Source: a virus
Length of the DNA stretch: 22,657 nucleotides
Virus record (IMG/VR): IMGVR_UViG_3300025286_000152
Location: 1 to 22,657 of that record
Reading direction: 5' to 3' (one strand)
Part shown: one piece after another, positions 20,548 through 21,944 of the stretch
Position numbering within the stretch: the first letter of the stretch is position 1
How the letters are laid out: every line of letters starts with the position of its first letter
Program-made: the position numbers and the translations under genes
The notes under the pieces: generated by a model
The model's input: only the letters and a program-made list of their open reading frames with translations
The model's database searches: none
What the model was told of the DNA's origin: nothing

Positions 20548-21027
20548 TTATGAGGTGGTATGTGAGCTGTTCCCATTAATCACAGCTTCTACAGCATCAG
20601 TTTGTTGTAGATAATGAGCTAACAATATAGCATCAGCAGTAGCTAATGTAACCTTTATATTAGGATATAATTGCTGTGCTAATTGCTTCAAATAGTTCTT
20701 CCTTTTTCTTTTATCTTTAGGCATTGAACCATAGAATTTCATCCAGGTATATGGAGGTACTAATACATATCTAACCTTAAGAGTTGCCAGTATAGCACAC
20801 CAATGAGCATAGTTCTCTGCGAATGTCCATACTGATCTAACACCTTGACCAGGCATACTATGTACCTTCTCTACTACTGCACTACATACACCTATATCAT
20901 TAGCTATCTCTATCTCATTAACCATATCATGTATAGTAGCAGGACACTTACATACTCTTATATCATCACCATTAAGGAAGCATACACCACCTGACTTACC
21001 AGGATCTATACCTATATATATCTTCAT
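20548..21027 (-). CDS. RuvC-like Holliday junction resolvase
   Basis: A 159-residue RNase H-fold nuclease. The first strand carries the catalytic aspartate in IGIDPGKSGG (D8), the second acidic residue is E53 in VVEKVHSMPGQG, and the C-terminal helix carries TLATADAILLAHYL with D132. This order and spacing matches phage RuvC-like resolvases. It would cut four-way junctions and branched DNA left by replication and recombination before packaging. Its ATG overlaps the stop of the replication protein gene (ATGA), so both are likely made together. The codon choice here (AAG, ATA, GTA frequent) differs from that in the late genes. Confidence 0.85.
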   Translation of the reverse strand: MKIYIGIDPGKSGGVCFLNGDDIRVCKCPATIHDMVNEIEIANDIGVCSAVVEKVHSMPGQGVRSVWTFAENYAHWCAILATLKVRYVLVPPYTWMKFYGSMPKDKRKRKNYLKQLAQQLYPNIKVTLATADAILLAHYLQQTDAVEAVINGNSSHTTS

Positions 21028-21944
21028 TGGTACTTATCCATTATATCAGATAGCTTAACAAAAGTATTAGTAGTAACCTCTGGTTCAGGCTGCATATCTA
21101 CATTAGGTTTAGTATTAAGCAGCATACCATTACAGCACTTACTATCCATAGTATGTACTTTAAAAGGATCATAGAAGTCAGATATACTACACTTACTACA
21201 GTAAGCAATAACAGAGTTACCAGTAGCATCTAATTTAAACTCTACTTTATCTGGCTGTTTAATTACAGTAGTATCTAACTCATCATTCCAATGCTCACCA
21301 TTAATATAAGTAGTAGGTAATTTAATAAGGGTTTTATCTACAATATTATTGACCTTTAACCATTGAACATAGATAGTAACACCTTCTATGCATAGCTTCT
21401 GATTAGCTTTAGTAAGGTTATTAAATGCTGTATATGCTCTTTTCTTATCTTGTTTTCTTGGATATAAAGAATAAAAAGAATTAAATAGTTCAAGGGTTTT
21501 ATCTTGAACATCTTTCTTTTCTTTTATTTCCTTTATATTCCTTTCCTTTTCTTTCCTTTCCTTTGGTATAGAGGACTCTTGGACTATTCTTGGAGGACTC
21601 TTGGAATGTTCTTGGATTACCTTCTTGAAATCATACTTGCTTGGTGTTTTTTTATCAATTCTTTGATGATCTTTCCATTTACATATCCTAATTAAGGTTT
21701 TTTCCTTATTTAGCTCTATCAAACCTACTCCAAGAATGTTCTTGATGTATTCTTGGACTACTCCAAGAGTAATCTTGGAATCAACTGGGAATATAGTAGC
21801 TTTAATCTGTAATGGACTATTCTTTAGTACACCTTCATCATCAGCCATATTAAACATTCCTATAAACAACAATCTTTCAGGGATCTGAATAGACAATATC
21901 CTATGACTTGTCCAGAACTCCTTTTTTATCATCCTATTTCTCAT
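21024..21944 (-). CDS. Phage replication initiator, winged-helix (O/DnaD-like)
   Basis: A 306-residue protein. The N-terminal domain (1-105) is typical of phage replication initiation proteins: MIKKEFWTSHRILSIQIPERLLFIGMFNMADDEG, SPLQIKATIFP (43-53) and IRICKWKDHQRIDKKTPSKY (85-104). This should be a winged-helix DNA-binding domain. A Lys/Glu-rich linker (128-150) follows, then a helical region (YPRKQDKKRAYTAFNNLTKANQKL, 161-184) that resembles replisome-organiser C-domains. The C-terminus adds a possible zinc site (C249, C252, C270, C271). The gene contains two iteron clusters. The start ATG has GAAAGGA 6-8 nt upstream. It may open the origin and recruit the host helicase. Confidence 0.78.
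   Translation of the reverse strand: MRNRMIKKEFWTSHRILSIQIPERLLFIGMFNMADDEGVLKNSPLQIKATIFPVDSKITLGVVQEYIKNILGVGLIELNKEKTLIRICKWKDHQRIDKKTPSKYDFKKVIQEHSKSPPRIVQESSIPKERKEKERNIKEIKEKKDVQDKTLELFNSFYSLYPRKQDKKRAYTAFNNLTKANQKLCIEGVTIYVQWLKVNNIVDKTLIKLPTTYINGEHWNDELDTTVIKQPDKVEFKLDATGNSVIAYCSKCSISDFYDPFKVHTMDSKCCNGMLLNTKPNVDMQPEPEVTTNTFVKLSDIMDKYQ
21577..21616. repeat. Iteron cluster A: four TCTTGGA at exact 11-bp steps
   Basis: TCTTGGA occurs at 21577, 21588, 21599 and 21610, each with a 4-nt spacer, within codons 110-123 of the replication gene. A further related TCTTGAA lies at 21623. An 11-bp step is not a multiple of three, so the repetition is not caused by a repeated peptide and points to a DNA-level role, most likely initiator binding sites of an origin. 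Confidence 0.85.
21729..21779. repeat. Iteron cluster B: five heptamers, mixed orientation, 11-bp steps
   Basis: TCCAAGA at 21729, TCTTGAT (one mismatch) at 21740, TCTTGGA at 21751, TCCAAGA at 21762 and TCTTGGA at 21773. All five are spaced 11 bp apart with 4-nt gaps, though two are inverted. They lie in codons 56-72 of the replication gene. Between clusters A and B is a very A+T-rich stretch with T-runs that could melt easily. Confidence 0.85.

Follow-up and report, generated by a model that had tools for sequence, protein, structure and literature searches.

One-turn-spaced heptamer sites within a phage replication initiator gene: a candidate origin layout that recurs across a large initiator family

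The window analyzed here, which is the whole of a virus record (22,657 bases), contains a gene for a 306-residue replication initiator (positions 21024-21944, minus strand). This gene, which occurs unchanged in two other contigs and houses the entire candidate origin described below, was identified both by a profile search, in which it matches PHROG 2149 (E = 4.7e-25) and also PHROGs 1408 and 270, all annotated as 'replication initiation protein', and by an AF2 model of its product. In the model a confidently predicted winged-helix DNA-binding domain (codons 1-95; 21660-21944, minus strand; pLDDT mostly above 93) is followed by a linker of low confidence (residues ~110-140), which is predicted to be disordered, and then by a confidently predicted helical C-terminal domain (codons 143-215, FYSLYPRK...YINGEHWNDE; 21300-21518, minus strand). 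This last domain, which is common to otherwise different phage initiators, is presumed to be a recruitment module for the helicase or the helicase loader; the C-domains found by Pfam across 46 family members include DnaT, Phg_2220_C and HNH. The N-terminal domain carries the family signature MxRIRxIKPEFW...ADDxG...FP...HQxI and is covered by no Pfam family. A sequence search found no solved structure for the initiator, and Foldseek with the initiator model returned generic winged helices only, none with E below 0.1; alignment of residues 2-92 by VIA-align yielded winged helix-turn-helix (wHTH) folds at Z of about 7, among which RepA_N initiators (4pql, 5kbj and 4pt7) score no differently from other wHTH proteins. 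In the window the initiator is followed by a gene for a RuvC-like Holliday junction resolvase (20548-21027, minus strand; PHROG 1770, E = 7e-26), which overlaps the stop codon of the initiator gene; in relatives, several named phages among them, the gene after the initiator encodes a DnaC- or P-like loader or a DnaB helicase.

Nine exact copies of the heptamer TCTTGGA (TCCAAGA on the opposite strand) occur within the initiator gene, eight of which form two clusters that keep strictly to a spacing of 11 bp. Cluster A (21577-21616) lies in the part of the gene that encodes the disordered linker and consists of four TCTTGGA sites, all on the plus strand, at 21577, 21588, 21599 and 21610, with 4-nt spacers that vary (CTAT, GGAC and ATGT). 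Cluster B (21729-21779), which coincides with codons 55-72 and thus mostly with helix 60-73 of the modeled initiator, consists of five slots, at 21729 (minus), 21740 (plus), 21751 (plus), 21762 (minus) and 21773 (plus). The initial annotation had described two such clusters inside the initiator gene, and this is confirmed, every within-cluster step being exactly 11 bp; it had also counted eight perfect copies and one with a mismatch, of which the eight stand, but the degenerate slot at 21740 reads TCTTGAT and has two mismatches, with just TCTTG being kept. The additional sites that it listed were all located: a lone exact heptamer in the region encoding the C-domain (21456-21462, plus strand), which is out of phase with the clusters; a TCTTGAA site with one mismatch (21623-21629, plus strand), which falls 13 bp beyond the last site of cluster A and so off the 11-bp phase; and a second TCTTGAA site, likewise with one mismatch (21502-21508, plus strand), which borders the purine tract discussed below on the side away from cluster A.

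The significance of these sites was assessed using codon-preserving shuffles, in which both the protein and the codon usage are held fixed. The nine copies, which the initial annotation had proposed comparing with such shuffles, stand against a mean of 0.98 and a maximum of 5 in 5000 of them, and the five exact 11-bp heptamer pairs against a maximum of 2 (again in 5000); when all 7-mers and all periods between 8 and 40 are admitted, the best score for the gene is 5 versus a shuffle maximum of 3 (n = 1000). For cluster B alone, a direct-repeat lag test is not significant (p = 0.3) because the orientations alternate, whereas the strand-indifferent test is significant. The whole window contains 17 copies of the heptamer, as against 3.6 expected from dinucleotide shuffles; nine of the 17 lie within the initiator gene, and the other eight are scattered. 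GC skew was rejected as origin evidence: it simply follows the coding strand, that is, gene orientation, and is uninformative; because the contig is incomplete, cumulative skew provides no independent sign of an origin either.

Could selection on the protein have produced this pattern, with a QE..SK..PR linker peptide repeat being favored and the DNA repeat arising as a by-product? Three 11-bp steps amount to 33 nt, or 11 codons, so that the heptamer passes through three frames in a QE..SK..PR..QE-type pattern, and a weak 11-residue peptide repeat does exist (VIQEHSKSPPRIVQESS in the window initiator, FQEYSKNVPRTF and FQDASKTHPRRVQDASK in relatives), contrary to the initial annotation's statement that the encoded peptides are not repeated. 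Its broader point nevertheless holds: the 11-bp heptamer phasing is not explained by coding, given that codon-preserving shuffles destroy the signal, that the heptamer is read in all three frames and in both orientations, that the linker is predicted to be disordered, and that relatives keep the 11-bp phase while encoding unrelated peptides. Coding constraint as the source of the array is therefore scarcely credible.

Adjoining cluster A, and likewise within the linker-coding region, is a 55-nt purine tract on the coding (minus) strand (21510-21564), a candidate unwinding element. The tract is made up of eleven in-register pentamers (AAAGG AAAGG AAAGA AAAGG AAAGG AATAT AAAGG AAATA AAAGA AAAGA AAGAT); its lag-5 identity is 36 versus 26.5 in codon shuffles (p = 0.002), and its lag-10 identity has p < 0.001. 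Across the family an array usually is followed within ~20 nt by a purine tract, composed, for example, of GGGAA or GGAACAGG repeats. An unwinding element would be expected close to initiator sites, which is where this purine tract of simple repeats stands; judging from its sequence, it may melt. In the linkers of the L300, L302, L305, L308 and L038 initiators, CTGATTCC-type 8-mer repeats occupy the place of the purine tract; initiators bearing these repeats belong to Pseudomonas, Bordetella and Acinetobacter phages, plus L038, and the repeats possibly constitute another unwinding element.

A scan of 2.9 million viral contigs for TCTTGGA occurring three times at 11 bp yielded 15 stretches, two of which are copies of the window phage. 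In six of the other 13 (L037, L038, L043, L045, L047 and L049) the array lies inside a homologous initiator having the same N-domain; five of these six share 27-37% identity with the window protein (by tblastn), and L038 was recognized from its translated ORF. Most of the initiators found in this way have, like the window gene, a second phased cluster ~140-180 bp away. A TCTTGGA array in L040 lies within another replication-like gene, and three viral contigs (L039, L042 and L048) carry a near-identical TGTCCAAGA array of three copies at 11 bp, where there is no ORF of 60 aa or more. As a control, the reversed heptamer yielded 4 stretches (versus 15), two of which are plain minisatellites. The database background thus is not zero, for which reason the argument for an origin rests on the codon-shuffle tests and on the location of arrays within homologous initiators. 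When the gap was allowed to vary in search of a preferred spacing, multiples of three, which come from coding repeats, dominated among the matches listed; among those not multiples of three, 10, 11 and 22 were favored in the same set.

Some of the database matches are tandem minisatellites (L197, L185, L213 and L214), including arrays of TCTTGGA-bearing 11- or 22-bp units in Paenibacillus (L197:1144-2080) and Marinobacter (L185:1053-1158), and an ordinary minisatellite generated by replication slippage is accordingly one conceivable origin of the window array. This is very unlikely for an array in which a constant 7-base word alternates with 4-nt spacers that are different each time and in which the orientation is mixed, and whose phase is repeated in homologous genes without shared nucleotide sequence.

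The initiator family was also surveyed without assuming any heptamer. The query consisted of initiator residues 1-54 only, which encode no array; at least 555 relatives were confirmed as having this 54-residue N-domain, and the best 80 of these were kept and were scored for strand-indifferent phased 7-mers against codon shuffles. Among these best 80 of at least 555 relatives, period 11 with three or more slots was found in 67 genes versus 13.5 expected and, with four or more slots, in 22 versus 0.65 expected; periods 10 and 22 were also raised, and most others were near background. After dereplication (into clusters at 60% identity, with nuclease fusions removed), period 11 was found in 25 of 34 initiators, as against 5.6 expected, about one quarter of this set having no clear 11-bp array; in ORFs taken from the same contigs it was found in 4 of 60, versus 3.5 expected. 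Autocorrelation over the linkers of 59 genes gave z = 22 at lag 11 and z = 15 at lag 22, with lags 12 and 13 at background; the peaks fall at 11, 22 and 33, corresponding to the iterons (33 being also a codon-length multiple), and at 5, 10, 15 and 20, corresponding to the purine tract. The cluster-B region, by comparison, gave 11 and 22 bp signals only across the family, and cluster B is present in just part of it. The 11-bp phase, which the initial annotation had suggested seeking in related phage genes, is thus present in homologous initiators at the same linker position and beside a purine tract; moreover, its reading of the clusters as a candidate origin is strongly supported by homology, namely by the initiator families to which the protein belongs and by the phased arrays of distant phages.

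What is conserved in these arrays is the phase more than the word. The words found in phased arrays include TCCAAGA, TCACTGA, TCGACGA, TCGAAGA, TCGCGAG, TACNGTA and ACTCCCGTAG; most family sites fit the form TC-NNN-GA, the ends of which are palindromic. Pairs of TC-NNN-GA sites in the linkers number 81 at 11 bp (6.8 expected), 51 at 22 and 28 at 33, whereas spacings of 9, 10, 12 or 13 bp are not represented by a single pair. Because of the palindromic ends, flipping such a site alters only its central three bases, which accounts for the mixed orientation at fixed phase that the initial annotation had found unusual. TCTTGGA was rejected as a family-wide motif, inasmuch as the nearest relatives use other words. 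Closest to the window initiator in the N-domain tree is L215 (63% over 78 columns), which carries GACTCCCGTAGCGCTCCCGTAGTGCTACCGGAGG in the corresponding position; the lag-11 score of L215 was reached in 0 of 2000 shuffles. Relatives that keep the protein while losing the repeats had been named as evidence that would count against an origin: the nearest ones, L215, L031 and L029, do lack TCTTGGA, yet the position is taken in them by a different array with 11-bp phase (ACTCCCGTAG). The N-domain tree was built without the cluster B codons, from few columns, and many of its forks are open; on it the core class must have changed no fewer than 10 times, where shuffling gives a mean of 14.3 and a value as low in 1 of 200. 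Hence the core word is partly clustered on this tree, yet often switched.

Clear arrays occur within the initiator genes of seven of 16 named phages with complete genomes: Gordonia phage Gsput1, mycobacteriophages Butters and Bernal13, Propionibacterium phage PFR1, Stenotrophomonas phage SOVA965, Corynebacterium phage PSonyx and Marinomonas phage P12026. The array of Tyrion is suggestive, and F10, JBD44, Pitbull, AcinMD and Mx8 have no clear 11-bp array by the phased score. None of the 16 annotated phage records that were checked has an origin or repeat annotation at the array, and no description of 11-bp iterons in this initiator family was found in the open-access papers searched.

Considered together with their location, the clusters most likely are the initiator-binding part of an origin that lies inside the phage's own initiator gene, a lambda-like build, with the adjoining tract melting. 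The recurrence of one layout (sites spaced by one turn plus a purine stretch) in dozens of distantly related phages of many hosts very probably reflects a shared type of origin. Mechanistically, the N-terminal winged-helix domain would bind the 7-bp TC-NNN-GA site (here TCCAAGA/TCTTGGA), with one subunit per 11-bp step; the subunits, all on one face of the DNA, would pack as a cooperative nucleoprotein array; this array would strain the adjoining 55-nt pentamer-repeat purine tract, leading to its melting; and the C-terminal domain would then bring in either the replicative helicase or the helicase loader. That the encoded initiator binds the sites with this stoichiometry, that the tract melts and that an origin is active here is in each case deduced from sequence.

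Several known systems bear comparison with this arrangement. The iterons of lambda are 18-19 bp inverted repeats that bind O dimers and that are followed by an AT-rich tract; the window gene differs in having single 7-bp sites, one helical turn apart and in either orientation, two clusters of them, and a pentamer-periodic purine tract. The lambda ori is situated in the middle of gene O, where repeated initiator-binding sites, on which the O-some forms, precede an easily melted tract (PMC7466680, PMC6022878). The window gene resembles it in having its sites inside the initiator gene beside a candidate melting tract and in encoding apparent N-terminal DNA-binding and C-terminal recruitment parts; the lambda O Pfam family has no match in the window protein at E up to 1. 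In RepA_N plasmid initiators such as pSK41 Rep, a winged-helix N-domain precedes a variable C-domain, and the origin boxes lie in the central part of rep, which codes for a dispensable linker (PMC5703833). Here too sites lie in the central linker-coding part, and the predicted N-domain aligns with 4pt7, 4pql and 5kbj over residues 2-92; but other winged helices match the predicted N-domain equally well, the sites are laid out differently, and PF06970 (RepA_N) has no match in the window protein or in 45 relatives. For mycobacteriophage initiators of the RepA type, compared here by description only, the authors suspected an origin inside repA or a short way upstream, on the model of lambda, but reported that they found no repeated motifs (PMC7157519). 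The site type appears to be a variant of the intragenic iteron origin known from lambda O and RepA_N plasmids, distinguished by its phasing at one turn, by its insensitivity to orientation and by a word that changes often at constant phase.

The nuclease fusions within the family are relevant to another system, in which one initiator DNA-binding domain is joined in some proteins to a C-domain for replication and in others to a nuclease, as in PLE RepA and ICP1 Odn (PMC8263062, PMC7145576). Three members of the window initiator family carry HNH, although the domain family is another one and the PLE iterons are ~30-bp semi-palindromes in a noncoding region. These three fusions of the N-domain (L216:1695-2648, L269:2495-3400 and L270:2495-3775) gave no 11-bp signal, and neither array nor tract was seen on inspection; though only three in number, they fit the notion that the sites are tied to replication rather than to coding of the N-domain. 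By analogy, the fusions could be origin-targeting nucleases like ICP1 Odn.

A more general reading, to which we give somewhat less than an even chance, is that a large phage initiator family shares an origin grammar. Its elements would be 7-bp sites, mostly TC-NNN-GA, that work in either orientation at a step of exactly one helical turn, and a purine tract phased in pentamers; the word would have changed at least ~10 times on the N-domain tree, and the 11-bp phase would have persisted because the initiator forms a filament with one subunit per turn on one DNA face. If true, this would be unlike both lambda O dimers and RepA_N boxes, and would render origins predictable from sequence in many phages. 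It provides a rule for locating them (11-bp-phased TC-NNN-GA sites in the initiator linker plus a 5-bp-phased purine tract) within a family that is widespread (at least 555 relatives). A constant phase with a switching word also amounts to a natural experiment on the joint change of a winged-helix initiator and its site, and the family allows a direct test of whether or not a subunit at every helical turn is required in origin complexes.

In bacterial genomes the 11-bp TCTTGGA array occurs in 46 stretches, including SLFN_AlbA_2 regulators, intergenic sites and minisatellites, and as a specific mark of origins it was therefore rejected. Arrays within or beside bacterial SLFN_AlbA_2/HATPase_c_4 ('RecG-like') genes, several of which encode a C-terminal winged helix, were found at L170, L174, L199 and L202, and additional loci of this kind are L167, L173, L184, L188, L189, L194, L196 and L203; these possibly are autogenous binding sites, and some winged-helix regulators may use the same 11-bp geometry. 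The presence of such arrays inside winged-helix genes that are not initiators lends some plausibility to an autoregulatory operator in the window as well, that is, to binding of the intragenic array by the initiator or a phage repressor as a transcription roadblock with no role as an origin. That reading is nonetheless improbable, since it leaves unexplained the pentamer-periodic purine tract, which is conserved together with the array, the fact that the three nuclease fusions have lost array and tract alike, and the lambda-like gene order in relatives; operators, moreover, are expected mainly upstream of a gene. A partition centromere is suggested by geometry instead: the parC of plasmid R1 consists of two groups of 11-bp direct repeats, similar to the layout here, and a ribbon-helix-helix or HTH partner would bind the repeats. 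No partition gene was recognized among the window proteins scanned (a subset of the ORFs), however, and in phages from many different hosts the arrays go with the initiator gene, so that a parC-like role is very improbable; an initiator-binding origin remains the preferred reading.

TCTTGGA arrays also occur near tRNA genes in bacterial and viral loci (L041:376-404, L171:6924-6952, L192:3693-3743 and L182:782-810), that of L171 being also just before an integrase-like ORF, which suggests that the tRNA-adjacent arrays are integrase arm-type sites; this interpretation, considered for the bacterial arrays, does not apply to the window array. Finally, a different phage initiator (L007:5464-6390) has six AAACCCC copies in its linker, mostly 34-35 bp apart and with 0 of 200 codon shuffles as high, which from their sequence would appear to be intragenic iterons with another geometry.
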